Positions 5,019 to 22,406 of a stretch of DNA of 64,000 nt are shown here, in pieces (position 1 is the stretch's first letter; each line of letters starts with the position of its first letter). Below the pieces are notes generated by a model. That model searched no databases. It was not told where the DNA came from and saw only the letters and a program-made list of their open reading frames with translations. The stretch spans positions 34,538 to 98,537 of the forward strand of contig DATKSK010000068.1 in assembly GCA_035531755.1 (NCBI GenBank), given 5' to 3'. Source of the DNA: Acidimicrobiales bacterium (GTDB taxonomy: Bacteria > Actinomycetota > Acidimicrobiia > Acidimicrobiales > UBA8190). Position numbers and translations under genes: made by a program.

Positions 5019-5061
5019 AGCGTCGTCCTCGAACCGTGCGGGCACTAGGGACCAACGTCCC
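5019..5061 (-). promoter_or_regulatory. DosR-box-like promoter of the sensor/pseudo-receiver pair
   Basis: On the minus strand, GGGACGTTGGTCCCTAG (5061-5045) is followed after 20 bp by GACGCT (5024-5019), and ATG 5012 begins 6 nt later. GGGAC...GTCCC is an inverted repeat and the closest match in the window to the mycobacterial DosR consensus. Box, spacer and -10-like hexamer align position by position with four other promoters (13572, 18999, 19149, 22358). Confidence 0.65.
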
Positions 5062-5095
5062 AAACCCGCCGGGGAAGGACCGAGCTAGCCGGGAG

Positions 5096-5923
5096 CTAGC
5101 CGAGGATCGGGAAGGTGCGCTCGGCCGCCAGCCGGTCGAGCGTGGCCTGCATCGTGGTCGTGAGCTCCTGGTAGCAGTCACGGACGACGACGTCGTCCTC
5201 GGCCGCCTCGGGACCGTACCGCGACGGCCAGTCGATCGGCTCGCCCAGCTCGACCGTGATCTTCGCGGGAAGGGGCCACGTCGGGATCCCCCCGGGGACG
5301 ATCCCGAAGGGCGGCCCGAGCACGAGCGGCATCACCTTGATCCGGAACATCCGGTCGATCCCCAGGAGCTTCGCCACCCGCTCGCCGCGCGCCAGGACGA
5401 TGACGGTCTCGTGAGCGCCGACGGAGACCGCCGGAACGACGGGCACCCCCATCCGCAACGCCAGGCGGACGACACCGGTGCGGTCGCCGAAGTCGATGCG
5501 GTTGCGCCGCCACCAGGGGCGGAACACCTCGTGGTCACCGCCCGGATAGTCGATGAGGATCCCCCCAGCGCGCAGGATCGCCTCCGCCTCGTCCCGGCCG
5601 GCCTCCACGGCGCCGGCCCACTTCATCACCGGGCCCACACCGGGCAGCCCCAGGAAGAACGAGTGGAACAGCGCGAACACCGGCTCCGCTTCACCCCGCT
5701 CGCGCCACCACGCCGTCAGCAGGACGGGCAGATCGGGCGGGATCTGGCCCCCGGAATGGTTGCCCACCACCAGGAAGGGCCCTTTCTCCGGGAGGCGCTC
5801 GAACCCCCTGACCTCCGACCTGAAGTACGACGCGAAGACCTCGAGGACCGGGCGCGCGGCGCGCAGGAACGCCGGGTCGCGGGCGGATCCCACCTCCGGC
5901 GGCACGCTGTGGCGATCGCTCAC
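5096..5923 (-). CDS. DGAT2/PlsC-like acyltransferase
   Basis: 275-aa lysophospholipid/diacylglycerol acyltransferase-like protein. It shows the NHSGGQIPPD signature (the NHSGG variant of the H-x4-D motif), followed by VGPVMKWAGAV, IDYPGGDHEVFRPWW and RLALRMGVPVVPAVSVGAHE, which together resemble the DGAT2/monoacylglycerol acyltransferase branch. The GTG start (5923) overlaps the TGA of the WS/DGAT gene as GTGA, so the two are translationally coupled. It probably supplies or completes an acylation step in storage-lipid synthesis at the membrane. Exact acceptor unknown. Confidence 0.83.
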   Translation of the reverse strand: MSDRHSVPPEVGSARDPAFLRAARPVLEVFASYFRSEVRGFERLPEKGPFLVVGNHSGGQIPPDLPVLLTAWWRERGEAEPVFALFHSFFLGLPGVGPVMKWAGAVEAGRDEAEAILRAGGILIDYPGGDHEVFRPWWRRNRIDFGDRTGVVRLALRMGVPVVPAVSVGAHETVIVLARGERVAKLLGIDRMFRIKVMPLVLGPPFGIVPGGIPTWPLPAKITVELGEPIDWPSRYGPEAAEDDVVVRDCYQELTTTMQATLDRLAAERTFPILG

Positions 5924-7308
5924 GACACCCCGACCGCCGTCTGCTTCAGGTCCGCCAGCGAGCCGTGGAGCGCATCGGCGATCGACCAGGGATCCGGCAC
6001 GCTCGCCGGACACCCGAGCACCGAGACGTGCAGCGCGTCGGCGTAGCTCCAGGCCGTGATGTTGAGGCCGATGCCCTCGAGGATGGGCCCCACGGAGTAG
6101 ATGGCATCGAGCTCGGCCTTTCCCACCCGCAACCGCTCCCGCGGTCCCGGCACGTTCGACAGCACGAGGTTGACCGGAGGGCGCATGTGGTCGGCCAGAT
6201 GGGTTCGGGCCCACGTCCGCACCGTGAGCGCATAGAGCTGCGGGGGGACGATGTCGGCGCGCCGCTCCAGGAGGTCGTTGCCGAGCACGGAGCGCACGTC
6301 CTTGGACGCGGCCGCCACGGCCTGGATGTGCCGCAGTCGTTCGAGGGGGTCGGCCAGGTCGGTCCCGATCGACACGTACAGGTTGTCGACGCGGTTCCCG
6401 CCCATACGGGTGGCGCTGGAATCGGTGGAGACCGGGACGCTCGCCACGAGCGGGCGGTCGGGCAGCGCCCCCTGCGCGATCAGGTAGGAGCGCAGCGCCC
6501 CGGCGCACACGGCCAGATAGACGTCGTTGAGGGTGGCGCCGCTCGACCGGCGCACGGCCTTCAGGTCGTCGAGCGGAAGCGTCGTCATGGCATAGGTCCG
6601 TTCCGGGGTGAGCGACACGTTGAACATCGTCCTGGGCGTGTCGAACGGCAACGGTGGCTTGACCGCCGAGGACCGCCTCCGGGCCTCCGAGGCGCGCAGC
6701 CCCCGGATGGAGCGCGTCGCCAGTCGCGGCAGCTGGTCCAGGCGGGCGACGTGGTCGCGCGCCGCCATGCGCAGGAGCTGGGACCTCGTGGGGACGGGGT
6801 CCGGGCGCCACCGGTCGACAGGAGCGCCGGCGCCGTGCCCCCCGAGAGCGTTCCGCAACAGGGCGACCGTGGCCGCGCCGTCGGCCACCGCATGGTGCAC
6901 CTTCGCCACGACGGCGAGCCGGTCGTCGGCCATGCCCTCCACCACGACGAGCTCCCACAGCGGCCGGTCGCGGTGCAGGGGCCGGCCGGCGACGTCGGCC
7001 ACGACCGCGGCCAGCTCCCGGTCGCCGCCCGGCTCGGCGACGCGGCGAGCGGTGACGTGCCGGCGCACGTCGAAGTCGGGATCCTCGATCCACACCGGGT
7101 GCCCGAGGCCCCAGGGGACCGGGACGGCCCGTCGGCGGAAGGGCGGGAGCCGGTCGAGGCGACGGCCGAACATCTCCAGCACCTGCTCGTACGAGTACCC
7201 GCCGCCGAGCGCGGCCATGTCGAACACCGCCACCTTCAAGGTGTGCATGTGGGTCGACGGGGTCTCCGAGTACAGGAACTTGGCGTCGAGCCCGACCATC
7301 GGCTCCAC
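5920..7308 (-). CDS. Wax ester synthase / diacylglycerol acyltransferase (WS/DGAT)
   Basis: A 462-aa bifunctional WS/DGAT that esterifies acyl-CoA to fatty alcohols or diacylglycerol. The catalytic HHxxxDG motif is intact (KVHHAVADG, about residue 140). Other family blocks are the N-terminal MEPMVGLDAKFLYSETPSTHMH, here within the first 25 residues, the LWELVVVEGM strand, and the C-terminal NLVLSNVPGPRERL and GIGLNITAWSYAD blocks. Length is normal. It starts 3 bp after the upstream hydrolase stop and overlaps the acyltransferase downstream, making a three-gene lipid operon. In Mycobacterium, tgs1 of this family is DosR-regulated; I looked for the box described here upstream of 8649 and did not find it. 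Confidence 0.93.
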   Translation of the reverse strand: MEPMVGLDAKFLYSETPSTHMHTLKVAVFDMAALGGGYSYEQVLEMFGRRLDRLPPFRRRAVPVPWGLGHPVWIEDPDFDVRRHVTARRVAEPGGDRELAAVVADVAGRPLHRDRPLWELVVVEGMADDRLAVVAKVHHAVADGAATVALLRNALGGHGAGAPVDRWRPDPVPTRSQLLRMAARDHVARLDQLPRLATRSIRGLRASEARRRSSAVKPPLPFDTPRTMFNVSLTPERTYAMTTLPLDDLKAVRRSSGATLNDVYLAVCAGALRSYLIAQGALPDRPLVASVPVSTDSSATRMGGNRVDNLYVSIGTDLADPLERLRHIQAVAAASKDVRSVLGNDLLERRADIVPPQLYALTVRTWARTHLADHMRPPVNLVLSNVPGPRERLRVGKAELDAIYSVGPILEGIGLNITAWSYADALHVSVLGCPASVPDPWSIADALHGSLADLKQTAVGVS

Positions 7309-7311
7309 GGC

Positions 7312-8649
7312 TCAGCCCACGTCGACGGCGGGCCCGCAGCTGAGCCCGGATGCCGTCAGGGACTCCGCCAGGAACGCCTCCACCTGCCGTGACCACAGGT
7401 AGCCGACGTGGTTCCCCGGGTACCAGCTGATGCGGGGCTTGTCCCAGTGCTCCCACAGGGCGCGGGCCTGCTCGGGGACGGCCACGCGGTCGCCGTAGCC
7501 GGCGAACACGAAGCGACGGTCGTGCGGCACCTTGGGCTCGAATCTCATCGGCGACACCACCCGGCACACGTCCTCGGCCACACCACCCAGGATGTGGTGC
7601 TCGATGGCACGCGCCCGGATGTGCACGGGGCTGTGGGCGTGGAAGAGGGCGGGGAAGTCCACCACCGGGATGCCGGCCACCACGGCGTCGAGCCCGTCCT
7701 CGATCCCGCAGAGCAGCGACACGACGTAGGCCCCGAGCGAGACCCCGTAGACGCCGATGGAGGTCGCTCCCTGGTCCCTGATCCACGACAGGAGGCGCCG
7801 GACGTCCCACACCGCCTGGGTCAACCCGTGGACGGTGTTCATCATGTCGAACGACAGGAACGGCTCGCCGCTCACCAGGGTCACCTTGCGCGACCCGTGC
7901 AGCGGGAGCACCGGTAGGGCCACGTTGAGCCCGAGCCCCCGGTGCAGCTTGGCGGTGTGGAGGCCGGCGAAGTCCATGAAGGGGTAGCCCATGCCGAACC
8001 CGTGCACGCACACGACCCATGGGCGCGGCTCGCCTCGGTGACGGAGGACGGCGGCCGTGGCCCGACGGTTGGGCCCGTAGGCCATCCACCGCTCGCCGCC
8101 GGGCTCGGCCGGGCGGGTGGCGAACCCGCTGTCGTACGTGATCCGCTCGTAGCCCAGGCCGAGCGCCCACGCCCGCTTCGTCTCGACGTCGTGAGCGCCG
8201 AGCGGGGGTGGGGTGCGGTGGTACGAGGCGGGGCGAGCGATCCAACCCCGCCGGGAGAACAGCTGCCGGGCGGAGGCCAGCTCGGTGCTCACGCGGGCGA
8301 AGTCGGCCCGACGGGGGAACCGACTGGGCGTCATGGCCATGGCCAGCAGGGCCTCGTCCATGGCGACCCCGGCCGCCAGCCCCAGCGACAGGCCCGGCGT
8401 CGGCAGACCGGCGGACACCTCGCCGCTCTTGGCCGTCGTCACCATGAAGCGCACGGTGCGGGGCACGGCCAGCGTGGCCCGGGCGATCGCTCGTCGCCCG
8501 AGGAATCGCACCACCGAGCGGTACGGCCCCACGACGCGGTCGACGAGCGACGGTGACTGCGGACGGTCACCGGCCGCGTGCGACGGCGGTCCGTCCTCCG
8601 GCGCGACCGCGGCCGCGGATCCGTCCACCACCCCCTGGGCGCAGACCAT
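7312..8649 (-). CDS. Alpha/beta hydrolase (lipase/esterase type)
   Basis: 445 aa. The N-terminal 150 residues contain an amphipathic/helical region. The alpha/beta-hydrolase core starts near WVVCVHGFGMGYPFMDF (oxyanion HGFG). The nucleophile elbow is GVSLG (GVYGVSLGAYV), the likely acid is in FAGYGDRVAVPE and the likely His in WYPGNHVGYLW, so the triad seems complete. It is the first gene of the operon with WS/DGAT and the acyltransferase, which suggests a lipid ester substrate. Start ATG 8649 is preceded by GAAGGGGG. It is divergent from the acyl-CoA synthetase at 8758. Confidence 0.8.
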   Translation of the reverse strand: MVCAQGVVDGSAAAVAPEDGPPSHAAGDRPQSPSLVDRVVGPYRSVVRFLGRRAIARATLAVPRTVRFMVTTAKSGEVSAGLPTPGLSLGLAAGVAMDEALLAMAMTPSRFPRRADFARVSTELASARQLFSRRGWIARPASYHRTPPPLGAHDVETKRAWALGLGYERITYDSGFATRPAEPGGERWMAYGPNRRATAAVLRHRGEPRPWVVCVHGFGMGYPFMDFAGLHTAKLHRGLGLNVALPVLPLHGSRKVTLVSGEPFLSFDMMNTVHGLTQAVWDVRRLLSWIRDQGATSIGVYGVSLGAYVVSLLCGIEDGLDAVVAGIPVVDFPALFHAHSPVHIRARAIEHHILGGVAEDVCRVVSPMRFEPKVPHDRRFVFAGYGDRVAVPEQARALWEHWDKPRISWYPGNHVGYLWSRQVEAFLAESLTASGLSCGPAVDVG

Positions 8650-8757
8650 GGGCCCCCTTCACACGCTCCGTCATCCCAGCCGCCCAGCGGATCACGCCTT
8701 CTGGGACATACTACGCCGAGGGACGTGGACGAGCCGCCGATCGAGAGGGGAGCGGCG
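8650..8757. promoter_or_regulatory. Divergent intergenic promoter region
   Basis: 108 bp between the start codons of the hydrolase operon (-) and the acyl-CoA synthetase (+). A -10-like CATACT lies near 8705 on the plus strand, and GAGAGGGGAG just before 8758 is the synthetase ribosome-binding site. No box of the 17-bp type found elsewhere in the window is present at the expected positions in either direction. Confidence 0.4.
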
Positions 8758-10377
8758 ATGGAGTTCAACCTGGCAGACCTGTTCGAATGCGTGGTCGACC
8801 TCGTCCCCGAGCAGCCGGCGGTCGTGGCCGGTGACCGTCGACTCAGCTACGGCGGGCTCGAGGGTCGCGCCAACCGCCTGGCCCACCACCTCGCCGGCGC
8901 CGGGGTCGGGACCGGTGACCGCGTCGGCCTGCAGCTGGCGAACGGGAGCGAGTACCTCGAGGGGATGCTCGCCTGTTTCAAGATCCGGGCCGTCCCCGTC
9001 AACGTCAACTACCGGTACGTCGCCGCCGAGCTCCGCTACCTCTACCAGGATGCGGCACTCGACGCCTTGATCTTCCACAGTCGCTTCGCCCCGGCCGTCA
9101 CCGACGCCTTGGCCGCCATGCCCGCGCGCCGGACGCTGCTCGAGGTGCCCGACGCCGACGTCGGACCGTCGGGACTCGGGGACGACTACGAGCGCGCCCT
9201 GGCGGCCGCCGACGCCTCCCGTGACTTCGGGCCGCGCTCGGCAGACGACCTCTACTGCGTCTACACCGGAGGGACCACCGGCATGCCCAAGGGCGTGCTG
9301 TGGCGTCACGAGGACATCTTCTTCGCCGCCATGGGTGGGGGCGACCCCCTCGCGCTCGGCAATGTCATCGGCTCGCCCGAGGAGCTGGCGACGAGGGTGT
9401 TGCGCCCGGGCATGACGGCGCTCCCGTGCCCACCGTTCATGCACGCGAGCGCCCACTGGTTGGCGTTCACCATGCTGTTCGGAGGCGGGAAGATCGTGAC
9501 GCTCCCCGGTGGGCACTTCGACCCGGCCGCGGCGTGGCGCCTGGTAGCCGCGGAAGCGGTGAACATCCTCGTCGTCGTGGGCGACGCCATGGCCCGGCCC
9601 CTGCTCGACGAGCTCGACGCCCACCCCGGCGGATACGACACCTCCTTCTTGGTGGCGGTGGGCTCGGGCGGCGCAGTGTTGTCCCCGGCGACCAAGCAGC
9701 GCCTGGCCGACATGCTCCCGGGTCGGATCGTCGCCGACGCCTTCGGATCGTCGGAGACCGGGCAACTGGGTGGGGCCCCGCCCGACGACGATCCCTACGG
9801 GGCACCGCACCTGCACGTCGACAGCCGCACCGACGTCCTCGACGACGGGCTGCGCCCGGTGGTCCCGGGCTCGGGCGTGGTGGGGCACCTGGCACGCTGC
9901 GGCCACATCCCCATCGGGTATCTCGGAGACACCGACAAGACCGCGGCCACGTTCGTGGAGTCCGACGGCAGACGCTGGGCCCTTCCCGGCGACATGGCCA
10001 CCGTCGGAGCCGACGGTGCCATCACCATCCTGGGTCGCGGTTCGCTGTGCATCAACACCGGAGGGGAGAAGGTCTTCCCGAACGAGGTCGAGGCCGTCCT
10101 GATCAGTTGCCGCGACGTCGAGGACGCCCTCGTCGTGGGGGTCCCCGACGAGCGCCTCGGCGAACAGGTCGTGGCCGTGGTGCAGCCGCGCCCGGGCGGC
10201 ACGGTCGACGGTGAGGCCCTGCAGGCCCTGTGCCGGGGGGAGCTGGCGGGGTACAAGGTCCCGCGCCGCATCGTGGTGGCCCACGCCATCGTGCGCTCAC
10301 CGGCCGGCAAGGCCGACTACCGGTGGGCCAAGGCGTTCGCTTCGACCGTCGTCGCCCGAGACCGCAGACGAGGTTGA
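8758..10377 (+). CDS. Acyl-CoA synthetase (AMP-forming, FadD type)
   Basis: 539-aa member of the ANL superfamily that activates a carboxylic acid via acyl-AMP to its CoA thioester. The P-loop-like A3 motif is VYTGGTTGMPKGV. Later motifs are DAFGSSETGQ (A5), GDMATVGADGAITILGRGSLCINTGGEKVFPNEVE (A7/A8, split here over several blocks) and PAGKADYRWAKA with the catalytic A10 Lys. The start is ATG 8758 after GAGAGGGGAG; longer frames upstream overlap the divergent promoter. Together with the opposite lipid operon it could supply acyl-CoA. Chain-length specificity cannot be told. Confidence 0.9.
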   Translation: MEFNLADLFECVVDLVPEQPAVVAGDRRLSYGGLEGRANRLAHHLAGAGVGTGDRVGLQLANGSEYLEGMLACFKIRAVPVNVNYRYVAAELRYLYQDAALDALIFHSRFAPAVTDALAAMPARRTLLEVPDADVGPSGLGDDYERALAAADASRDFGPRSADDLYCVYTGGTTGMPKGVLWRHEDIFFAAMGGGDPLALGNVIGSPEELATRVLRPGMTALPCPPFMHASAHWLAFTMLFGGGKIVTLPGGHFDPAAAWRLVAAEAVNILVVVGDAMARPLLDELDAHPGGYDTSFLVAVGSGGAVLSPATKQRLADMLPGRIVADAFGSSETGQLGGAPPDDDPYGAPHLHVDSRTDVLDDGLRPVVPGSGVVGHLARCGHIPIGYLGDTDKTAATFVESDGRRWALPGDMATVGADGAITILGRGSLCINTGGEKVFPNEVEAVLISCRDVEDALVVGVPDERLGEQVVAVVQPRPGGTVDGEALQALCRGELAGYKVPRRIVVAHAIVRSPAGKADYRWAKAFASTVVARDRRRG

Positions 10378-10384
10378 CCGATCC

Positions 10385-10840
10385 ATGGTGGCCGTGACCG
10401 TGTCGATCGAGGTCGATGCCCCGCGCCCGGCGGTGTGGGCCGAGTTGGAGCGGCTCGAGGATCACGTGGCGTGGATGCGCGATGCCACCGCCATCCGGTT
10501 CGTCGGGGACCGGCGGCGCGGCGTGGGCACCACCTTCGAGTGCGACACCGCGGTGGGGCCGATCCGGCTGACCGACGTCATGGAGGTCACCTCGTGGGAG
10601 ACGGGGTCGACGATGGCGGTCGTGCACCGGGGGATCGTCACCGGCTCCGGCCGCTTCACCCTGGAGGACGGGCCCGGAACGGCCACGACGCTGCGGTGGT
10701 CGGAGCAGCTCCACTTCCCGTGGTGGTTGGGCGGCCCCATCGGCGCGCGGGTGGCGAAGCCGGTCCTGGGTGCACTGTGGCGGGGCAACCTCCGCCGACT
10801 ACGGGCTCGCATCGACGGGTCGGGTGACCCCGCGCGGTAG
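10385..10840 (+). CDS. SRPBCC / polyketide-cyclase-like protein
   Basis: 151-aa START/Bet v1-like fold. It begins with the typical VTVSIEVDAPRPAVWAELERLEDHVAWM strand-helix, has the GVGTTFECDTAVGPIRLTDVMEVTSWE beta sheet, and ends in a long helix, RVAKPVLGALWRGNLRRLRARI. Such proteins bind hydrophobic ligands. It begins 7 bp after the acyl-CoA synthetase stop, so they are probably co-transcribed. Ligand unknown. Confidence 0.75.
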   Translation: MVAVTVSIEVDAPRPAVWAELERLEDHVAWMRDATAIRFVGDRRRGVGTTFECDTAVGPIRLTDVMEVTSWETGSTMAVVHRGIVTGSGRFTLEDGPGTATTLRWSEQLHFPWWLGGPIGARVAKPVLGALWRGNLRRLRARIDGSGDPAR

Positions 10841-13260: not shown

Positions 13261-13571
13261 CACCCGTTCTCCCTCGAACCGGCTCGTCGAAAGACGCCCC
13301 GAGACCCGCGAGAACGGGCCCACGGGATGGTCTCCCTTCGCCGGCATTGCCCGGATCAGGTCCTTGGGGTCGCTGAGTCGCCTCAGCCTCTCAGCCTTGC
13401 GGCTCCCTCTTCCATCTCGCGGGCCTACATCCCATTGGAGCGCAGCCCGGCATGCGTCCAGTAGGGCCGAAGGTCCCAGGGCGCCGGCGCCCGGGCACCC
13501 GCCGTCGGACCGGCGGAGATCCCGACGGGCTCGCCGCCGCGTGCCGGTCGGCACCAGCCCACGCCGCCAGC

Positions 13572-13614
13572 AGGACCTTGGCCCCTTGCACGAGGGATCA
13601 TCGAGGGCGACGGT
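13572..13614 (+). promoter_or_regulatory. DosR-box-like promoter of the PRPP-synthetase-fragment/TY-Chap pair
   Basis: AGGACCTTGGCCCCTTG (13572-13588), 20 bp, then GACGGT (13609-13614), then 6 nt to ATG 13621. I found it by testing the fixed spacing seen at three other promoters. It is the weakest of the five boxes but keeps GAC, the central GG and CCCT. The -10-like hexamer keeps A at position 2 and T at position 6. Confidence 0.5.
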
Positions 13615-13620: not shown

Positions 13621-13830
13621 ATGGACGTGACACTGTTGGCGGGGAGCGGCGATCCCGCGCTCGCCGCGGCCGTGGCCTGCCACCTCGGTATCGACACGAC
13701 GCCGTGCACCACAGCGCGGTTCCCCGACGGTGAGGCGCACGTCGTCGTCGGCGAGGTTCGAGGTTGCGACGTCTACGTGGTGCAGCCCACCGGCCTGCTC
13801 GCCGAACGCACCGTGGAACCGCGGGAGTGA
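13621..13830 (+). CDS. Truncated ribose-phosphate pyrophosphokinase-like N-terminal domain
   Basis: 69 aa. LLAGSGDPALAAAVACHLG, ARFPDGEAHVVVGEVRGCDVYVVQPT is the first 60 residues of PRPP synthetase (normally about 310 aa), ending where the first strand-turn of the N-domain ends. The ATP and ribose-phosphate sites are all missing, so it cannot be an active enzyme. Yet it has a promoter of the shared type, begins at the leaderless position and its TGA overlaps the next GTG (GTGA), so it is probably expressed. It may be a decayed prs copy now serving as leader cistron, or a small domain with its own role. Confidence 0.6.
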   Translation: MDVTLLAGSGDPALAAAVACHLGIDTTPCTTARFPDGEAHVVVGEVRGCDVYVVQPTGLLAERTVEPRE

Positions 13831-15185
13831 CGGAGCGCATGGCGAAGTACCGGTTCGACTGGTCCGCCCTCCCCGCGGGTCTCCTGCGCCAGCTCCGGCG
13901 TGAGCTGCACCTCGGCGGGGGCGACCCCGCCGAGGCACTGAAGCGTCTGTTCGGCGCCCGCCCCGACGAGGAGTTCGTGCGTTCGGCATGGCCGGCGTTA
14001 CGGGAACGGTGGGTGGCCCACGACCCGGTGGTCCGGCGATCGGTCGTGACGGCGCTGCGCGCCCGCCACCTGGGTGATCCCATCAAGCTGTCAGGAGCGC
14101 GCTCGGAGGTCGAGTACCTCCGGTCGTGCCGGAACAGCCCCGCGCTCCGGGCAGTCGTGCTGCGCCATCTCGTCGCGCTGGGAGAGGAGCCTCCTCGCCC
14201 GAGGATCCCGGCAACCACCGACCTCCGGGCCAAGAGACCTTCGACCGCGTCGACGCGAAGCGAGGCGTGGGACCTTTTCGGTGACCAGCTCGCGGGCGCG
14301 CTCGCCGAGATGGAAGCCGGTCAATACCTCGTCGTCAACGTCCGGGGCCGGCCCGAGTACTACGTGCAGTTCGCACAGGGCGGGACCCGGGGGCTGCGCG
14401 CCGAGACAGCCTCGAATGCCAACCTCGAGGATTGGGAGCTGCTCGACGAGGAGGCGAAGGGAGTGCTGGATCGTCTGGGGTGGCGGGCCCCCGCCGACGT
14501 GTCGTCCTCGGGAACGACCGGCGGAGCGCCGAACTATTCGAAGACGTGGTCCGTTCCCGTTCCCTATGCGGCGGTGGCGGCCCTGGCGGTCCGCACCTTC
14601 GACGAGGTGCTCGAGGTCCGACGGCCCGAGGAGCTCGCCTACCGGGCGTTCACCGAGGCAGGCGCGGAGCTGTCCTTGCCGAGGCTCGCGATCGCGCCTG
14701 AGCGATCGACGTGGCCCCGGCCGCCGACTCGCATTCCCAGCCATGGCCAGCTGCTCCAAGAGGTGAAGGCGGTGATGAGGACGATCATCGGCGCGGACGA
14801 GGTCGTCGTCGACGAAGACGGCGACATCCCCGTTCGTGTCGACGGTGCCATGGTCTTCGTCCGGGTCCACCAGGTGGTCCCGGTCGTGAGCGTCTTCTCA
14901 CCGGTCATCTGGGACATGGGGATACCTGTCGACATCGCCGAAACCCTCAACGACATGAACGCGACTATCCGGTTCGCCCGGGCGACGTGGGACGGGTCCG
15001 GCGTCACGCTGGCCGCCGAGGTGGTCGGCGCGCCACTGGAGGCGGAGCAGCTCGAGGCCTGCTTCCAGGCGGTGGCCACCCTTGCCGCCGAGTACGCCCC
15101 GAAGCTCCAGGAACGTTACGGCGGTCGGGTCGCCTTCGGGCCGGCACTGCCACCCAAGCACGTGGCCGTCGGCGGTTACCTGTGA
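13827..15185 (+). CDS. TY-Chap / YbjN-like chaperone-domain protein
   Basis: 452 aa from GTG 13827, which overlaps the upstream TGA; ATG 13839 is an alternative. The N-terminal 150 residues are helical. Residues about 150-300 (WDLFGDQLAGALAEME, QYLVVNVRGRPEYYVQFAQ, SNANLEDWELLDEEA) resemble actinobacterial TY-Chap domains. Residues about 320-450 (LLQEVKAVMRTIIGAD, VFVRVHQVVPVVSVFSPV, LNDMNATIRFARATWDGSGV) look like the YbjN/type-III-secretion-chaperone fold. These domains are predicted peptide-binding chaperones. Coupling to the PRPP-synthetase fragment and the shared promoter type suggests a stress role. Confidence 0.7.
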   Translation: MTERMAKYRFDWSALPAGLLRQLRRELHLGGGDPAEALKRLFGARPDEEFVRSAWPALRERWVAHDPVVRRSVVTALRARHLGDPIKLSGARSEVEYLRSCRNSPALRAVVLRHLVALGEEPPRPRIPATTDLRAKRPSTASTRSEAWDLFGDQLAGALAEMEAGQYLVVNVRGRPEYYVQFAQGGTRGLRAETASNANLEDWELLDEEAKGVLDRLGWRAPADVSSSGTTGGAPNYSKTWSVPVPYAAVAALAVRTFDEVLEVRRPEELAYRAFTEAGAELSLPRLAIAPERSTWPRPPTRIPSHGQLLQEVKAVMRTIIGADEVVVDEDGDIPVRVDGAMVFVRVHQVVPVVSVFSPVIWDMGIPVDIAETLNDMNATIRFARATWDGSGVTLAAEVVGAPLEAEQLEACFQAVATLAAEYAPKLQERYGGRVAFGPALPPKHVAVGGYL

Positions 15186-15283: not shown

Positions 15284-16294
15284 TCAGGACCAGTCGATGA
15301 CGAGGCGCCCCGCCTCTTCGGTCACCGCCGTGCCCAACTCCTCACACGCGCGGCGGAACCGGCTCCTCACCCATGTGGCCTCGTCCCCGGAGGCGAGCCG
15401 AGTCCGGCAGTCGTCGAGTGCAAGAGGTACCGCTTCGAGCCGTCGGGGTCCGCCGGCGTCCAGGGTGACCAGGAACAACAGGCCGAGGTCGTTGCGCAGC
15501 ACGGGATCGGTGGCGTAATCGTCGAGGAAGTCCCCGAGGTCGAAGAGGACCGGACGCGCCACCCCGTGGAACACGTGTGCCGAATGGCCCGCCACCAGCG
15601 TGGCTCCGGCCTCGACCAGGGCATCGGCGGCGCGTCGGACATGGGCGACCGGGCGGAGCACCATGTTCGGCCCCCAGTGGGGCGTCACGATCACCGCGTC
15701 CGGTGTGTCCTGGGTGCTGGCGAGCGCTGATGCCGCTGCCAGCGTCAACCATGAGGGGATGTCGGTTCGCAGGTCGGCGTACGCCACACCGGGCCGATGC
15801 GGTCCGGCGGCGAAGGCCGACGGATGGTCCGTGACCCCCACCACGGCCACGTGTCGGCCGCGGACATCGAGGACTGCGGGCGCCCGGGCACGCGCCACAT
15901 CGGCGCCGGCGCCGACCCAGGCGATGCCCGCGGCCTCCAGGAAGTGGAACGTGTCGAGCAGCGCCTCCGTCCCATAGTCGAGCGCGTGGTTGTTGGCGAG
16001 CGTGACGCAGGTGGTCCCCAGTTGGACGAGGGTGTCGAGCGCCGCGGGTGGGGCGCGGAAGAAGAACGGCTTGCCGGGGTCGCGCCACGGGCGGCCGCGT
16101 GTCGACACGCAGCACTCCAGGTTGAGAAGGACCATATCGGCCTCGCGGGCGATCTCGACCACCTCGGGAGCCACCAGGCGCGCCGACGGATCGGCGGCGA
16201 GACGCTGGGCGACGCCTCGCCCGAGCATCGTGTCACCGGCGAGTGCGACGCGAAGGGCCGGGCTTCTCGGCCGGCGTGCGCCCTGTTGGCCCAT
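15284..16294 (-). CDS. CapA-family metallophosphatase-like protein
   Basis: 336 aa. The CapA/poly-gamma-glutamate synthesis signature is clear: LAGDTMLGRGV with the metal-binding Asp, LLNLECCVSTRG, CVTLANNHALDYG (NNH), VVGVTDHPS, VIVTPHWGPNM (HWG) and LVAGHSAHVFHG (GHxxH). No signal peptide is visible, so a cytoplasmic role is likely despite the family's link to capsules. It follows the ribosome-hibernation gene by 48 bp and closes the three-gene operon that starts at 18950. Substrate unknown. Confidence 0.85.
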   Translation of the reverse strand: MGQQGARRPRSPALRVALAGDTMLGRGVAQRLAADPSARLVAPEVVEIAREADMVLLNLECCVSTRGRPWRDPGKPFFFRAPPAALDTLVQLGTTCVTLANNHALDYGTEALLDTFHFLEAAGIAWVGAGADVARARAPAVLDVRGRHVAVVGVTDHPSAFAAGPHRPGVAYADLRTDIPSWLTLAAASALASTQDTPDAVIVTPHWGPNMVLRPVAHVRRAADALVEAGATLVAGHSAHVFHGVARPVLFDLGDFLDDYATDPVLRNDLGLLFLVTLDAGGPRRLEAVPLALDDCRTRLASGDEATWVRSRFRRACEELGTAVTEEAGRLVIDWS

Positions 16295-16342
16295 TCCTTC
16301 CTCTCTGCGTCTGCGATCGCCGGCCGACGGCGAGCGGGATCG

Positions 16343-17776
16343 TCACTCGGGGACGATCAACCCGTAGTGCCCGTCGTAGCGGCGATACAGCACGTTGCCC
16401 CGACCCGTTGCGGCATTGGCGAAGAACACGTGCGGCTCTCCGCCGGCGTTGAGCCGCTCGATCGCCTCGTCGACCGTGAGCACGGGAGCCGCCGTGCCCG
16501 GCACCTTCAGGAGTACGGCGGTGGGCCCGGGGTCGACGTCGACGGCCACCAGGCGCTCGAGCACGTACGAACCGTCGACCGACCGCTCGATCATGGCGTC
16601 GGCGCCGCTGGCCAGGTCGACGAAGAGGTAGAAGTGGAAGTCCAGCTGTTCCATGTCGAACAGGGCCTCGTCCGGGGTGAGCTCGTCGACGGCGAAGGTC
16701 TTGTGTCGGACCAGCTGCCGCTCCTCCAGCGGGCGCTCGAAGTACGCGGGCCGAGCCGCGGGAGGGTCGCCGTGGCGCCATTCCCCGGGCTCGGCCACCG
16801 ACCGCGACCGCGCCAGCCGCTCACGATGCTGGGCCCGGTGGTCGAGGAGGTCCCGCAGGCGCCCCTGCAGGCGGTCGACGGCCTCGGGCATCGTGTGGGC
16901 GGCCACGTGCGCCCGCACGAGGTCGCCGTTCACGTCCAGGGTCGCCTGTGCCACGGCGGGGCGGTCCCTGGCCGGGTCGGCCTCCTTGGCGAGCTTCACG
17001 CGGGCGAACAGCACCGGCTCCCGGAGCATCTCGAGCAGACGCGCCACCCGATCCTGGGCGTAGGCCTTGGCGTCCTCGCCGACGTCGCCCACCGCTGACA
17101 TCACGATGGTGAGCGCGCCGGCTGCGGTCTCGATGACGGCGGGGGCCTCGGGCGGACGGCCTTCCTCGACCCACTGTTCGGTCAGCTCGCCATGCGCAAA
17201 CCGGCAGCGCACGCTGACGGCCCGCTCGTCGGGACCGGACGGCGCCCAGGTGACGATGGCTTCGCCGTCGGCTCCCCGAACCGCGGCGCGGCGCCCGGCG
17301 CCGAGCAGCGGGCTCGCCTCGAGCCAGGCCTGAAGGGCCGATCGCCCCGTCACGGGCTCCTCGCCGACGTGGAGGACCGCGTCGGGGGCGTAGAGAGCCG
17401 ACGCCCCGGCCGCGTCGCCGCCGCTCAGGCTGGTGGCCCAGGCCCGGACCACTTCGAGGGGATGCATGACTCCCGAGCGCGCCAACTCGGGGTTGACGTG
17501 GGCGTAGGGCAGGGGTCCCTTGGTGTCAGGACCGCGGGCACCGGTCAGGGCCCCGAAGCGGTGATGGCGGTGCGACGCACGCGCGCCTGGTCGCAACTGC
17601 ACCTCGACGGCCGTCTCCACTCCCTGCTCGCGCCGGACGTCGAAGTGGACGTGCGCCCCGGCTCGGCGGGCCACTGCCTCGAGATCGGCCACCCGGGCCC
17701 GAAACACCCGGCCGGCCCGCACGATCGTCGCCTCGCCGGACGACGGATCGAACCACTGCACCACCCCGTCAGGCAT
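16343..17776 (-). CDS. Ribosome hibernation factor (HPF/RaiA type) with extra N-terminal domains
   Basis: 477 aa, twice the usual long HPF. Residues 1-78 resemble a cold-shock-like fold (VVQWFDPSSGEATIV, VHFDVRREQGV, RHHRFGALTG). Residues 103-215 are an NTF2/SnoaL-like domain (VVRAWATSLSGGDAAGASALYAPDAVLHV). Residues about 220-325 match the HPF ribosome-binding domain. Two S30AE/sigma-54-modulation C-terminal domains follow (RHKTFAVDELTPDEALFDME, 356-412; PVLTVDEAIERLNAG, 430-477), the part that dimerises to form 100S ribosomes. It sits 61 bp after the eRF1-like gene in one operon with a DosR-like promoter. RafS of Mycobacterium is a DosR-controlled factor of the same family. Confidence 0.82.
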   Translation of the reverse strand: MPDGVVQWFDPSSGEATIVRAGRVFRARVADLEAVARRAGAHVHFDVRREQGVETAVEVQLRPGARASHRHHRFGALTGARGPDTKGPLPYAHVNPELARSGVMHPLEVVRAWATSLSGGDAAGASALYAPDAVLHVGEEPVTGRSALQAWLEASPLLGAGRRAAVRGADGEAIVTWAPSGPDERAVSVRCRFAHGELTEQWVEEGRPPEAPAVIETAAGALTIVMSAVGDVGEDAKAYAQDRVARLLEMLREPVLFARVKLAKEADPARDRPAVAQATLDVNGDLVRAHVAAHTMPEAVDRLQGRLRDLLDHRAQHRERLARSRSVAEPGEWRHGDPPAARPAYFERPLEERQLVRHKTFAVDELTPDEALFDMEQLDFHFYLFVDLASGADAMIERSVDGSYVLERLVAVDVDPGPTAVLLKVPGTAAPVLTVDEAIERLNAGGEPHVFFANAATGRGNVLYRRYDGHYGLIVPE

Positions 17777-17837
17777 CCTCGACCACCCTCTCGCTCGTCC
17801 GGGTCCGGCCCCACCCCGTCATCCCCGTCGCATGTCC

Positions 17838-18950
17838 TCAGTACCGTTCGATGGCTCCGATACCACCCATGGCATCGAGCGCAGCCGGTTCGCAGAACTC
17901 CACCTCGGCGCGTTGCGCGCACGCCTGTGCGATCGCCGGCGCGACGACGTCGTCGACGACGATCGGACGTTCCCCGCACACCGGGCACCGGAGCCCATCG
18001 GCCACCAACTGCATGCACCCGGGGCAACGACCGCCGGACGCCTCGAGGTCCCGCGACACCAAGAGGACGCCCACCCGCCCCGCCCGCAGGACGCCGAGCG
18101 TGGCAGTGAGCCCGCTCACCGCCCCCGCCCCCTGTTGGGCCCGTCCCCGCACCTCCTCCACGAGGGCGGCCTGGCGCCGGTGCCGCTCGTGGCGAACCAC
18201 GTCGATTGCCGCCCCCGCCACCTGGGACACCGGGGCGTTCACAGCGACCTTGATCGTCCCGGTGACGTGTTCCCTCACGCCTCGTGGCAGCTCCCCCCGG
18301 AGCTGTCCGACGATGTCGGCGGGGCCGCCGAGCACGATCCGCTCCACCGGCCGCTCCTTCAATTCGTCGAGCACCGCCCGGGCGACGTTGCTCAGGTGCC
18401 GCCGAGCCGCCTCCTCGTGGTGCCGTTCGAAGCTGCCGAGCTCGACGTCGGTGTCGACCTGGCGGGCCGGCTTGTCGACCGGCCCCTCGAGCTCGTGCGT
18501 CTCACCAGGGTCGAGCCGCAGCAGCCTGGACCGATGACGGTCGGTCACCACGACCAGCGCGTGCTCGTCGGATGCCAGAACCTTGCAGAGCCCGGCCACG
18601 TCGGGCGCCGGACTCACTCCCACGTGGTCGTGCACGGACACGGGCAATTCGAAGGTCCGGAAGAAATTCTGCGCGTTGCACGAGAAGGCTGCGAGGCCCC
18701 GCGTCACCCTGCGATCGATCCCGGCCGCCAACCACTCGCGGATCCGGAGGAGGTCGGCCTCGACCGCGTTGGCGACTTCCTTGCCGAGCGGCTCCGCCTG
18801 GGTGCGGGCCAGGCGGACGAGGTGGTCGATCCGAGGGTCGACATCCGAGGGGCGAGGGTACCTGCGCCCGTCCACATCGACGTAGAGGCTGGTCACGATC
18901 GGATCGCCGCGAAATACGGCCAACTCGCGAACCTCGGAAACCTCGATCAC
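17838..18950 (-). CDS. Vms1/eRF1-like protein (Rv2629 type) with zinc ribbon
   Basis: 370 aa from GTG 18950. Sequence blocks follow actinobacterial eRF1-domain proteins: PIVTSLYVDVDGRRYPRP at the N-terminus, ALVVVTDRHRSRLLRLD, a charged linker with GSFERHHEEAARRHLSNVA, then ERIVLGGPADIVGQL and TIKVAVNAPV. Near residue 310 there is a C-x2-C...C-x2-C pair (GRCPGC, LRCPVCG), a probable zinc ribbon. Vms1/eRF1 relatives act on peptidyl-tRNA in stalled ribosomes. Rv2629 is in the M. tuberculosis dormancy regulon. First gene of the operon with the hibernation factor and CapA. Confidence 0.77.
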   Translation of the reverse strand: MIEVSEVRELAVFRGDPIVTSLYVDVDGRRYPRPSDVDPRIDHLVRLARTQAEPLGKEVANAVEADLLRIREWLAAGIDRRVTRGLAAFSCNAQNFFRTFELPVSVHDHVGVSPAPDVAGLCKVLASDEHALVVVTDRHRSRLLRLDPGETHELEGPVDKPARQVDTDVELGSFERHHEEAARRHLSNVARAVLDELKERPVERIVLGGPADIVGQLRGELPRGVREHVTGTIKVAVNAPVSQVAGAAIDVVRHERHRRQAALVEEVRGRAQQGAGAVSGLTATLGVLRAGRVGVLLVSRDLEASGGRCPGCMQLVADGLRCPVCGERPIVVDDVVAPAIAQACAQRAEVEFCEPAALDAMGGIGAIERY

Positions 18951-18956
18951 CTTTCG

Positions 18957-18999
18957 ATGGTGGAGCAGGCGGGCCCAACCGACCAGGGCCTTCAGTCAC
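18957..18999 (-). promoter_or_regulatory. DosR-box-like promoter of the eRF1-like/HPF/CapA operon
   Basis: Minus strand: GTGACTGAAGGCCCTGG (18999-18983), 20 bp, CACCAT (18962-18957), 6 nt, GTG start at 18950. Same geometry as the promoters at 5061, 13572 and 22358. It lies back to back with the promoter at 19149 in the 264-bp divergent region. Confidence 0.65.
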
Positions 19000-19148
19000 T
19001 GCTCGGGGAATCGGACCCGAGATCGCCCCGGGTCTTCCTGCCCCATGCCACGGCGGGCACGGCGGGCACGGCGGTGATCGACGAGCTGCGACACGCGCCC
19101 ACGTCCACCGTCGCCTGAATCGCGGTCCGGCGCCTCCGGCCAAGTCGA

Positions 19149-19191
19149 GTGACCATTGACCCTGGTCCAGCGTCGTCCACAGGGGGACCCT
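19149..19191 (+). promoter_or_regulatory. DosR-box-like promoter of the PRTase-hydrolase gene
   Basis: GTGACCATTGACCCTGG (19149-19165), 20 bp, GACCCT (19186-19191). The predicted transcription start is 19198, giving a 17-nt leader that holds AGGAGG before ATG 19215. The box differs from that of the erythromycin-esterase gene at only two of 17 positions. Confidence 0.65.
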
Positions 19192-19214
19192 GGATGATGG
19201 GCCAGGAGGTTGCC

Positions 19215-20561
19215 ATGCCCTTCATCGATCGTGCCGATGCCGGACGACGCCTGGCGGCGCTCCTCGACCATCTTCGGGGCTCCGACGTCGTGGTGGTCGG
19301 CCTCCCCCGGGGTGGGGTGCCTGTGGCCTTCGAGGTGGCCCGTGCGTTGGGTGCACCGCTGGACGTGATCGCGGTGCGCAAGGTGGGTGTGCCCTTCCAG
19401 CCCGAGCTGGCCATGGGCGCCATCGGCGAAGCGGGGGCACGGGTGGTCGACGAGCGAGTCGTCGCGGCGGCTGGCATCAGCAGCGAGGAGTTCGCCGCCG
19501 TGGAGGCCCGCGAGCGTGTCGAGCTCGAGCGCCGCGTGCGGCGGTTCCGGGGGGAGCGGCCTCCGGTCTCCCTTGCCGGCCGCACGGTGGTCGTCGTCGA
19601 CGACGGCATCGCCACCGGGTCGACAGCCCGGGCCGCCTGCCAGGTAGCGCGAGCCCGGGGCGCCGCCCGGGTGGTCCTTGCCATCCCGGTCGCACCCCCC
19701 GAGTCGGTCGCCACGCTGAGCCGCGACGCCGACGAGGTCGTGTGTGTCGAGACGCCGGTGAGGTTCTTCGCCATCGGGGAGTTCTACGAGGACTTCACCC
19801 AGACGAGCGACGCCGAGGTGATCGCCCTGCTCGAGCGGGCGGTGCCGCTTGCCGCGGTCACCGCTCACCCGACCGCGATCGGTGGCCGGGGCCCGTCTGC
19901 GACACCCGACCCCCCGCTCCGGGACGAGGACGTCGAGGTGCGCGCCGGGACGCTGCGGCTCTCGGGCCACCTGACGGTTCCCGAAGGGGTGACGGGCATC
20001 GTCGTCTTCGCCCACGGGAGCGGCAGCAGCCGGCACAGCCCCCGCAACCGTTTCGTGGCGTCGGTCCTCAACCGCGACGGCCTCGGCACCCTGCTCTTCG
20101 ACCTCCTCACGCCGGAGGAGGAGGTCGACCGGGCCAACGTGTTCGACATCTCCCTGCTCGGGCACCGACTCGTCGAGGTGACGCGCTGGCTGCGAGCCGA
20201 TCCCACGGCTGCCACGTTGCGTGTCGGGTACTTCGGCGCGAGCACCGGCGCAGCAGCCGCCCTGTGGGCTGCGGGAGCGCCGGACGCGGAGATCGCCGCC
20301 GTCGTCTCCCGGGGGGGACGCCCTGACCTGGCAGCCGACAGACTGGCGTTCGTCGCCGCCCCGACCCTGCTCATCGTGGGTGGTCATGACGACGTCGTGC
20401 TGGATCTCAATCGCCGAGCGGCGGCGCAGCTGCGATGCGAGCACCGGCTCGAGGTCGTCCCGGGCGCGACCCATCTCTTCGAGGAGCCCGGCACCCTCGA
20501 GACCGCCGCCGCGTTGGCGAGCGGCTGGTTCGTCGGCCACATGGCCACGTCCCGGACATGA
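19215..20561 (+). CDS. Phosphoribosyltransferase - dienelactone-hydrolase-like fusion
   Basis: 448 aa from ATG 19215 (AGGAGG 5 bp upstream; in-frame ATGs at 19194 and 19197 are possible). Residues 1-215 are a type I PRTase domain with GLPRGGVPVAFEVA, VRKVGVP and the PRPP-binding VVVVDDGIATGSTARA. Residues about 235-448 are an alpha/beta hydrolase with GIVVFAHGSGSSRHSPRN, nucleophile region YFGASTGAAAA, LLIVGGHDDVV and the last His in GATHLFEEPG. Rv0571c of M. tuberculosis has this fusion and belongs to the DosR regulon, and Rv2030c joins a PRTase to an erythromycin esterase, whose homologue here is the gene at 22407. Substrate unknown. Confidence 0.85.
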   Translation: MPFIDRADAGRRLAALLDHLRGSDVVVVGLPRGGVPVAFEVARALGAPLDVIAVRKVGVPFQPELAMGAIGEAGARVVDERVVAAAGISSEEFAAVEARERVELERRVRRFRGERPPVSLAGRTVVVVDDGIATGSTARAACQVARARGAARVVLAIPVAPPESVATLSRDADEVVCVETPVRFFAIGEFYEDFTQTSDAEVIALLERAVPLAAVTAHPTAIGGRGPSATPDPPLRDEDVEVRAGTLRLSGHLTVPEGVTGIVVFAHGSGSSRHSPRNRFVASVLNRDGLGTLLFDLLTPEEEVDRANVFDISLLGHRLVEVTRWLRADPTAATLRVGYFGASTGAAAALWAAGAPDAEIAAVVSRGGRPDLAADRLAFVAAPTLLIVGGHDDVVLDLNRRAAAQLRCEHRLEVVPGATHLFEEPGTLETAAALASGWFVGHMATSRT

Positions 20562-20720
20562 GCGACGTCGACGTCTGACGCCGCCCCCACGAGGAGGAGC
20601 GCGCCGACATCGCCCGGGGGAGCGACCTGGCGGCCCCCCTCGTCCATCCGGCGGCCGTCCTCATCTCGCCGGGATGGAGGACGCCCAGATCACGCTGCTC
20701 GCACGACGCGGCGGCTCGGA

Positions 20721-20846
20721 TCAACTCTCGGCGATCGGGTTCTTGTCGGCCGGCTTCGGTTCGGATGTCGGAATTCGGATCTCGAGGATGCCGTCTTTGT
20801 GGCGCTCGTCCGCCGGGCGGTCGCGCAGCCGGGCTTCGCGGTCGGC
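20721..20846 (-). pseudogene. Hsp20/alpha-crystallin C-terminal remnant
   Basis: In frame directly after the TAA of the serine hydrolase, 41 codons read RHKDGILEIRIPTSEPKPAD and end at TGA 20723-20721. The DGxLxIxIP strand followed by a short Pro/Lys tail is the usual end of a small heat-shock protein. The alpha-crystallin core is absent. HspX (Rv2031c) is the hallmark DosR-regulon protein and lies beside Rv2030c in Mycobacterium, so a lost hspX-like gene would fit. The short length keeps this tentative. The neighbouring 20562-20720 shows nothing I recognise. Confidence 0.5.
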
Positions 20847-22121
20847 TTATCTCGTCCGGCGTCCGCCGTGCAGTGCTCTGGCCGATCGGAGCACCAGTCC
20901 AGCCAAGCGGAAGATCCGCTGATCGCCGCCGACAGGGGCCTGGATCAACCTCAGCTCGTTGGTGACGAAGCCAAATGACAACCCCGTGGCAGGATCGGCC
21001 CACCCCCCCGAGCCACCGAAACCGTAATGCCCGAAGGCCGAGTCACCCCGGTATCCTCGCGCCCCGGCCCGGTGGTACCCCATGCGCCAATTCATCCGCA
21101 TGCCGATGACCGCGTCGTGGGCCCTGGTCTGGACCTCGCTCAGCGCGCGCACCGTCTCCGGGGACAGGAGCCGGATGCCTTCGACCTCACCATCGTTGGC
21201 GATGACCGCGTAGAGCTTGGCGAGCGCATGCGCCGAGAAGAGGCCGTTGACCGACGGCATCTCGGTGTTCAGCACCGACGGCGACGGACCGGTGAGCAGG
21301 CGGTCGAGGTACGGGACGTACAGTGCCTCGAGGAAACGGCGGGTCAACTCGACCTTGCGAAGCGTCGGCATGGACCTGGCGCTCATGCTGGCAAAGAGCG
21401 GTGGCGTGGGACGCACGGGCGGGGTCCGGCCGAGGGACGGCGCGAAGCGGCCGACGCCGTCGGGCGGCATCCCGATGCACAAGCCGTCCGTGCCCAGGGG
21501 CTCGGCGAGCTCCGCACGCACGAGGTCTGCCATGCCGAGCCCGGTGACCCTCCGGGCCAACCCGGCCAGCAGCCACCCGAAGGTGATCGCGTGGTACCCG
21601 GGGTGCCCCGGCCACGGGTCCGAGGGCCGGGCCGCGAGTCGTTCCTCCAGGGCGATGTGGTCGAGCAGGGCCTCCGGGCCGTCGACGAGATCGGTCATCG
21701 AGTGCAGGCCGGCCTGGTGGCTGAGAAGCTGTCGCACGGTGATGGCTTGCTTCCCGGCAGCACCGAAGTCCGGCCAGTAGGAGGCGACCGGCGCGTCGTA
21801 GTCGACCAGGCCACGGTCGGCCAGGCGATGGATGACGGTGGCAGCCACACCCTTGGTGGTCGAGAAGCATATGGTGACCGTGTCGCGCTCCCACGGCCGC
21901 GACCGGCGGCGGTCGGCGAACCCGGCCCACACGTCGACGACCGGCCGGCCGTGCAAACGGACCGCCAGGCCTGCGCCACCTCGGCTGCCCGAATTGAACA
22001 GCTGGCCGAAGTACGACACCGCGGGCGCGAACATCGGATGCGCGTGGCCCTCGAGGGACCCGGGTGGAAGCTGTCGATCCGCGGCCCGGTGGGCTTGCCC
22101 GGCGGAGGTCAATGCCGCCAC
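20847..22121 (-). CDS. Serine hydrolase, beta-lactamase/esterase (class C-like) family
   Basis: 424 aa from GTG 22121; start uncertain. The S-x-x-K motif is CFSTTKGVAA. The family's other landmarks are GRPVVDVWAGFADR, VRQLLSHQAGLHSM, HPGYHAITFGWLLAGLARRVTG (Tyr motif region) and FGHYGFGGSGGWADP. This pattern matches actinobacterial LipE/EstB-type esterases rather than true beta-lactamases. No signal peptide is evident, which suggests a cytoplasmic or membrane-associated esterase. It is convergent with the PRTase-hydrolase gene and ends in frame into the Hsp20 remnant. Confidence 0.83.
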   Translation of the reverse strand: MAALTSAGQAHRAADRQLPPGSLEGHAHPMFAPAVSYFGQLFNSGSRGGAGLAVRLHGRPVVDVWAGFADRRRSRPWERDTVTICFSTTKGVAATVIHRLADRGLVDYDAPVASYWPDFGAAGKQAITVRQLLSHQAGLHSMTDLVDGPEALLDHIALEERLAARPSDPWPGHPGYHAITFGWLLAGLARRVTGLGMADLVRAELAEPLGTDGLCIGMPPDGVGRFAPSLGRTPPVRPTPPLFASMSARSMPTLRKVELTRRFLEALYVPYLDRLLTGPSPSVLNTEMPSVNGLFSAHALAKLYAVIANDGEVEGIRLLSPETVRALSEVQTRAHDAVIGMRMNWRMGYHRAGARGYRGDSAFGHYGFGGSGGWADPATGLSFGFVTNELRLIQAPVGGDQRIFRLAGLVLRSARALHGGRRTR

Positions 22122-22357
22122 CCGACCGCTGAGGGGTCGCCCGGACAGTCCGCGGCGGTCATGAGGGGGTCGGCGCTGCGGCTCGCATGTCCCACGCCTC
22201 CTGGTACCGACGGCCTACCTGCGTCCTGGCCCCACGGTATGCCCCTGCCTGGCGACCCGACAGAGTCCTTGGCCCTATCTCACCGTGGAGCGCACACGCC
22301 GACGCCCTGGTCATCCGACCACCGACACCGGCACCTCCGACCGGGGACCGGGACGTT
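22122..22357. other. Intergenic stretch without a recognisable gene
   Basis: 236 bp between the serine hydrolase start and the promoter of the erythromycin esterase. Short frames cross it on both strands, but none has a ribosome-binding site or a recognisable protein. It should hold the promoter of the serine hydrolase. Confidence 0.4.
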
Positions 22358-22400
22358 GTGACCATGGTCCCTGGCGGCACCGGCGCCGGCGGGCGACGCT
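22358..22400 (+). promoter_or_regulatory. DosR-box-like promoter of the erythromycin-esterase gene
   Basis: GTGACCATGGTCCCTGG (22358-22374) with the perfect palindrome GACCATGGTC, 20 bp, GACGCT (22395-22400), 6 nt, GTG start at 22407. The absence of a Shine-Dalgarno sequence agrees with leaderless translation. The stretch GACGCTGT is identical to that before ATG 5012. Confidence 0.68.
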
Positions 22401-22406
22401 GTCCGC

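Follow-up and report, generated by a model that had tools for sequence, protein, structure and literature searches.

Five predicted DosR-type boxes and a candidate dormancy regulon in an Acidimicrobiales genome

A 64,000-nucleotide stretch of an Acidimicrobiales bacterium genome (contig DATKSK010000068.1, positions 34,538 to 98,537; the whole stretch is called the window below) carries five copies of a 17-bp DosR-type box, each followed at a fixed distance by a -10-like hexamer. We consider it very probable that the five boxes are sites of the genome's own DosR-type regulator, which would likely switch on a low-oxygen dormancy regulon. The original prediction, made from the letters of the window, had proposed such a dormancy regulon, and this interpretation largely holds, supported by a scan of the genome and a comparison with relatives. 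The signal sensed and the role in dormancy we infer from homology.

Five boxes in the window

The boxes are GGGACGTTGGTCCCTAG (5045-5061, minus strand), AGGACCTTGGCCCCTTG (13572-13588, plus strand), the weaker GTGACTGAAGGCCCTGG (18983-18999, minus strand), GTGACCATTGACCCTGG (19149-19165, plus strand) and GTGACCATGGTCCCTGG (22358-22374, plus strand). Their -10-like hexamers are GACGCT (5019-5024), GACGGT (13609-13614), CACCAT (18957-18962), GACCCT (19186-19191) and GACGCT (22395-22400), respectively. All five 17-mers and hexamers had been described with correct coordinates and strands, and 20 bp separate box and hexamer in every case. A feature that had been overlooked is the start codon, which lies exactly 32 nt past the box in four of the five cases (a GTG for boxes 18983 and 22358). 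Behind box 19149 the start is 28 nt away, or 49 nt away with a Shine-Dalgarno-like AGGAGG before it. The core of the box is a 14-bp imperfect inverted repeat, GGGAC-N4-GTCCC. The likeness to the M. tuberculosis consensus that had been pointed out applies to this core; the outer TTS...SAA is not conserved, and most boxes here end in CCCTGG.

A lax pattern, RKGACNNNNGNCCCTNG, was used for the window and genome counts. Its matches in the window are exactly the five boxes, compared with a mean of 0.47 and a maximum of 2 in dinucleotide shuffles, none of which (0/100) reached five. When a -10 of the form A-N3-T was demanded at the fixed distance, the count was still five, against 0.02 expected from the shuffles. 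We also built a matrix from 15 sites, all outside the window and chosen partly by eye. Four of the five window boxes take ranks 1 to 4 in it (20.2-22.5 bits; next match 15.0 bits), and a first-order Markov null gives 0.01 matches per window at the cut-off of these four. The selection-free counterpart to this matrix is the -10 count on 25 outside pattern matches, given below.

Recurrence and promoter layout in the genome

The 3.28-Mb genome holds 31 matches to RKGACNNNNGNCCCTNG, 26 of them outside the window, and the reversed control gave 19. Since high-G+C DNA yields so little contrast, in the relatives as well, the lax pattern alone is no clean genome-wide test, and an A/T-A/T centre or a -10 was therefore required. 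The strict pattern KGACNWWNGNCCCTNG was found 20 times in the genome versus twice for its reversed control. Twenty-five of the 26 outside matches to RKGACNNNNGNCCCTNG could be read as loci and were used unselected. A-N3-T stands 20-21 bp from the box in 16 of them (10 at 20 bp and 6 at 21 bp; 0.93 expected, p ∼2e-17), and at any other distance from 5 to 44 it occurs in no more than two. The 26th match, taken from a longer stretch, has A-N3-T at 20 bp too. The -10 is absent in nine of the 25, eight of which also lack the A/T-A/T centre. The rigid 20-bp spacing first described thus applies to all five window boxes, and genome-wide it becomes 20 or 21 bp. As a scan of the genome had been expected to reveal, the motif recurs, mostly with a -10, before genes for Usp, two Pyridox_ox_2 proteins, an E1-E2 ATPase, archease and others.

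The frequency of the lax pattern in the reversed control and the nine outside matches without a -10 are what one would expect if the window boxes were chance matches in 72% G+C sequence. The window shuffles, the outside-site matrix, the -10 spacing and the conservation in relatives (see below) all counter this explanation, which we regard as barely credible. For four boxes a chance origin is refuted; 18983 is the one box that may yet be a chance match.

The constant 20-21 bp between two conserved elements would also fit an alternative sigma factor promoter, of which box and -10 would be the two halves, and rigid spacing is typical of such promoters. The upstream element is an imperfect inverted repeat, as for a dimeric activator, and the A-N3-T -10 is of the ordinary kind, so that, judged from these two elements, we hold this to be very unlikely. 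In M. marinum the -10 is given as YANNNT (PMC8022548).

From 403 kb scanned with the matrix we obtained 25 sites of at least 15 bits, among them the window's four strong boxes and another window match that lies inside a gene. A-N3-T follows at 19-21 bp in 22 of these sites. An ATG or GTG lies exactly 32 nt past the box in eight, and at 24 nt, inside the -10, in five. With the first base of the -10 hexamer placed at -12, the box extends from -49 to -33 with its centre at -42.5, and +1 falls on a start codon that is 32 nt away. We infer class II activation, with the box overlapping the -35 region and its centre 42.5 bp ahead of the predicted start; M. tuberculosis Dev boxes likewise overlap the -35 element (PMC3029386). 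Because a start codon 32 nt past the box coincides with this presumed +1, the mRNAs of four of the five window genes are predicted to be leaderless. The starts of some other targets are located further downstream (81 nt for Usp, 54 nt or more for WhiB), and therefore not all targets would be leaderless. When a second box in tandem was sought on the strand of the first, 3 of 25 cases yielded one, and all of these were weak (5.9-8.1 bits, 22-28 bp upstream).

Regulator and sensor kinase

A DosR-like activator elsewhere in the genome had been postulated and a DosR/DosS pair proposed as a check. On contig 21, a DevR/DosR orthologue indeed adjoins a DosS-like kinase. The best PDB match of the regulator is DevR (3c3w, 256.6 bits), followed by VraR at 156.6 bits, and its DNA-recognition stretch LAEKTVKNYVS is identical to that of DevR. 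It keeps the phospho-acceptor Asp54 (position counted manually in the alignment) as well as Lys179, Lys182 and Asn183. Lys179 and Asn183 we take to be DNA-touching residues of DevR. Lys182 is a DNA contact residue (PMC5999986).

The kinase has 391 aa and the domains GAF, HisKA_3 and HATPase_c. Its GAF is closest to DevS GAF-A (146.8 bits). DosS and DosT are built with two tandem GAF domains; since there is one GAF here, we call the protein DosS-like and not DosS or DosT. In a hand-counted alignment it retains the proximal haem-ligand His149 and the distal Tyr171 of DosS, and it has Gly at the place of DosS Glu87, as DosT does with Gly85 (roles of the DosS/DosT residues from PMC4082495). The kinase is predicted to bind haem through this GAF.

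Among 80 named loci around DosR relatives, a related kinase was found within the flank in 52 and none in 28. At nine of the 52 the kinase matches GAF and is 375-410 aa long; seven of these loci are assigned to Acidimicrobiaceae, Acidimicrobiales or Acidimicrobiia, and two only to Actinomycetota. These frame lengths are upper limits, and some of the kinases do not match GAF and may belong to a different kind. The predicted short one-GAF sensor is common in Acidimicrobiales and is not universal there, because other Acidimicrobiales loci carry GAF-matching kinases of 443-587 aa.

Locus L057 has a weak tandem pair of boxes (7635-7672; 10.1 and 12.3 bits), 21 bp apart and 100 nt before the gene for a 195-aa membrane-like protein without a Pfam family, which adjoins devR.

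Co-occurrence of boxes and DosR in relatives

We compared 59 relatives. Among the matches listed, the best DosR match was at least 210 bits in 38 genomes and at most 165 bits in 21, and the division into DosR-positive and DosR-negative was set at 200 bits, within the gap between 165 and 210 in the sorted best matches. The strict pattern KGACNWWNGNCCCTNG was counted 280 times in the 38 DosR-positive relatives (101 in the control) and 29 times in the 21 DosR-negative ones (38 in the control). The box excess differs between the two groups with a Mann-Whitney p of 0.00025, or 0.018 after removal of the genome's own family. At the level of genomes, the expected conservation of the motif in relatives is thus seen only where a DosR orthologue is present. 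The boxes also crowd around DosR itself. In the 80 named loci, 36 sites of at least 16 bits are located within ∼8 kb of DosR. Twenty matrices with shuffled columns gave 2.9 such sites on average and never more than 13, and the reversed matrix gave 4.

These counts bear on another possible reading, that the boxes are bound by a different NarL/LuxR-family regulator (from contigs 28, 71, 31, 12 or 69, or the HD-LuxR protein of contig 42). Such regulators are present: the own-genome searches returned seven GerE and five HisKA_3 matches, and the contig 71 pair is encoded within 10 kb of two boxes. The box excess tracks the DosR orthologue across the 59 genomes (co-occurrence was computed for the DosR orthologue only), the boxes accumulate near DosR genes, and the register of the motif is that of the mycobacterial DosR motif. 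We judge a different regulator of this family to be improbable. Two candidates were rejected individually, the contig 71 pair since its regulator scores 117 bits with VraR and 72.7 bits with DevR, and the contig 28 pair for a kinase without a GAF domain.

In relative G024, strong boxes were noticed ahead of two phosphoribosyltransferase genes (C154 and C193), pointing to a missing contig or another regulator.

Genes behind the window boxes

Box 5045 faces a sensor-like membrane protein gene (4329-5012, minus strand; predicted leaderless) with DUF4118 scoring at the Pfam cut-off. Behind box 13572 lies a 69-aa N-terminal fragment of phosphoribosyl pyrophosphate (PRPP) synthetase (Pribosyltran_N; 13621-13830, plus strand; predicted leaderless), and its stop is overlapped by the start of a TY-Chap/YbjN-type gene (13827-15185, plus strand). 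This fragment, the first gene after the box, may be either a leftover of a larger gene or a small protein in its own right. Box 19149 precedes a phosphoribosyltransferase fused to an alpha/beta hydrolase (19194-20561, plus strand; start at 19194 or 19215), and box 22358 precedes an erythromycin-esterase-family gene (22407-23738, plus strand; predicted leaderless).

Three genes on the minus strand follow box 18983 and are likely one operon. The first encodes a release-factor-like baeRF_family10 protein of the Balon/Rv2629 kind (17838-18950), a predicted ribosome hibernation factor, the next a RafH-like hibernation factor (16343-17776) and the third a PGA_cap (CapA-like) protein (15284-16228). 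The baeRF protein is nearest to the MSMEG_1130 and Rv2629 hibernation-factor models and scores far under their NCBIfam cut-offs (54.9 bits vs. 480 and 40 vs. 320); we therefore call it Balon-type by fold family only. No PDB relative was found for it at E 0.001. Residues 235-476 of the second protein are RafH-like, with 196.7 bits to RafH and 29.6 bits for the next match. It is a two-domain long HPF in which both S30AE domains are present, the N-terminal one under the Pfam cut-off. It differs from the known RafH by an N-terminal extension of ∼230 residues that includes a SnoaL-like stretch (24.8 bits, below the cut-off).

Conservation before orthologous genes

Conservation at the level of single genes, also anticipated by the original prediction, was found in part: boxes are kept before some orthologues of four window genes, and many orthologues have none. 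For orientation, a score of at least 14 bits occurs in 1.2% of background stretches of ∼210 bp.

Of the seven near-full-length esterase relatives, those of G005, G011 and G002 (73-85% identity) are preceded by a box scoring 16.6-26.3 bits, and a possible start codon follows it at 32 nt. The loci of G019, G020 and G034 gave no box, and at G035 nothing better than 13.0 bits was found, at a distance of 123 nt and without a -10. (A scrap without a match, L082, and a C-terminal piece, L084, were excluded.) A second erythromycin-esterase gene of G002 (C68:11259-12396) is in pieces and still has a box of 17.1 bits ahead of it.

For the phosphoribosyltransferase-hydrolase, a box of at least 13 bits is present near the start at 7 of the 21 loci having the N-terminus, and the G011 orthologue is preceded by the identical 17-mer of box 19149. 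Loci L102, L103, L105, L107 and L108 (no N-terminus) and L114-L116 (no tblastn match) were excluded, as were further matches without a retrieved locus and repeat loci of the G002 C68 fragment. The baeRF gene has a box at 2 of 16 loci (G015, and G010 as a partial match).

In the relatives with a full-length RafH-like protein (G009, G013 and G015) the gene does not follow a baeRF gene and is divergent from another neighbour. In these genomes it has its own box (13.3-17.8 bits), which lies 45-46 nt ahead of the first aligned residue and is followed by A-N3-T after 20 or 21 bp; the upstream scan was taken from the start of the alignment. The RafH-like fragment of G003 also has a box (19.4 bits), and relatives at 42-44% (G021 and G027) gave none. 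As a control we scanned ordinary HPF genes from 200 bp ahead of the first in-frame start (12 loci, 11 with readable upstream DNA) and no box above 8.5 bits was found.

Several observations weigh against a DosR-type regulator acting at these boxes. Outside the genome's own family the box excess is weaker (100 vs. 53 in 22 genomes), and 11 of the 38 DosR-positive genomes have no excess. G024 has boxes (8 vs. 2) though its best DosR match reaches only E 3.6e-36, like other NarL-type proteins. Four of the seven esterases are without a box, among them those of G019 and G020 despite the presence of DosR, as are 14 of the 21 phosphoribosyltransferase loci and 14 of the 16 baeRF loci. In the genome studied here, no box of at least 9 bits was found upstream of devS/devR, and autoregulation is therefore not seen. 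Most promoters have a single box, unlike the closely packed boxes of M. tuberculosis. Finally, box 18983 is weak. It stays below 4 bits (the listing floor) in the 15-site matrix and reaches 5.5 bits with stronger pseudocounts and 11.6 bits in a joint matrix that includes the box itself. It is backed by its position, at the correct distance from the -10-like hexamer and the start codon, and in G010 GGGACGGAAGTCCCTGG lies exactly 32 nt ahead of the baeRF gene copy, the same place as box 18983.

Targets outside the window

Box-bearing targets elsewhere in the genome include Usp, the two Pyridox_ox_2 proteins, archease, glutamate dehydrogenase, an AMP-ligase, saccharopine dehydrogenase, a CoA-binding protein, a member of the carboxymuconolactone decarboxylase family and an alpha/beta hydrolase. 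The box of the E1-E2 ATPase has 15.2 bits in the joint matrix, and the WhiB promoter lacks a -10. We scanned 20 outside proteins (19 from first genes, one from a second gene); six matched nothing in Pfam at E 0.001, and a seventh had only a sub-threshold match. No hspX-like gene was found among the annotated targets. The partner of archease is RtcB. An RtcB gene, Rv2631, is in the M. tuberculosis DosR list (PMC5309233). Between the Usp and archease genes (L032, 6817-6873) two strong boxes are present 40 bp apart on opposite strands.

Comparison with known DosR systems

The window genes had been likened to the mycobacterial DosR regulon, and RafH, the Balon-type factor, the phosphoribosyltransferase, the erythromycin esterase and Usp could all be matched. 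We take Rv2030c to be a phosphoribosyltransferase joined to an erythromycin esterase, Rv0574c to be CapA-like, Rv1997 to be a P-type ATPase and Rv0080 to be pyridoxamine-oxidase-like. The M. tuberculosis DosR list contains RafH (Rv0079), Rv2629, Rv0571c, Rv0574c, Rv2030c, Rv1997 and Rv0080, with Rv0571c classed as a phosphoribosyltransferase, Rv0574c as poly-glutamine-related and Rv1997 under transport (PMC5309233). RafH is under DosR control (PMC10799931), and Rv2629 and Msmeg1130 bind the ribosome (PMC10901736).

Judged by its sequences, the candidate system is of the known DosR regulon type. With DosR/DevR-DosS/DosT of M. tuberculosis it shares the orthologous regulator, the haem-GAF type of sensor, the palindromic core, the box overlapping -35 and the kinds of targets. 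It differs in that the sensor has one GAF, promoters usually carry a single box, several targets are predicted to have leaderless starts, autoregulation is not visible, the host is Acidimicrobiales-like and no hspX-like gene was found among annotated targets. In addition, esterase and phosphoribosyltransferase are two genes here, each with its own box. The M. smegmatis DosR motif GGGACTTNNGNCCCT (PMC6448022) has a register equal to that of the boxes here. In Streptomyces coelicolor, OsdR/OsdK includes a DevR orthologue which is located near Usp genes and can bind the mycobacterial element (PMC5069765). The published OsdR consensus AGGGCCGATCGGCCCT has C where the window boxes have A, the predicted sites are at varied distances from genes, and the regulon extends to development genes.

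If the boxes are DosR sites, the kinase would use its haem to sense that oxygen is lost (or NO/CO) and then phosphorylate the regulator. Bound as a dimer to the palindrome, which has its centre at -42.5 and overlaps the -35 region, the regulator would recruit RNA polymerase, and transcription would begin at or beside the start codon to give leaderless mRNAs. The Balon-type and RafH-like factors, made from one operon, may then bring about ribosome hibernation, while PGA_cap may adjust the envelope and the phosphoribosyltransferase alter nucleotide metabolism.

The best-known bacterial dormancy switch would in this way extend far from mycobacteria, to the environmental order Acidimicrobiales; no earlier report of a DosR dormancy system in this order was found in a limited literature search. 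The data suggest that the link of DosR to ribosome hibernation has been kept there. With the regular layout (box, 20-21 bp, -10, start codon) as a simple rule, DosR targets could be listed in genomes of uncultured bacteria, and the regulator and sensor are non-mycobacterial candidates for structure and haem work. We further propose, as a speculation that is more doubtful than not, that Acidimicrobiales run a streamlined, hard-wired DosR (one-GAF sensor, single -42.5 box, leaderless mRNAs) so that intact 70S ribosomes could still start target messages during translation shutdown, and that oxygen-controlled ribosome hibernation would be an ancestral task of DosR which predates the mycobacteria and their pathogenic lifestyle.

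Two further box-like sequences were noticed in the window. A match of 13.8 bits, GGGACCTTCGGCCCTAC (13461-13477, minus strand), lies ∼110 bp from box 13572 on the opposite strand, without a good -10. A weak one, GGGCCATTCGACTCTTG (23760-23776, plus strand), has CAGGCT at the right distance and is located 33 nt ahead of the start of an ABC transporter ATPase gene.

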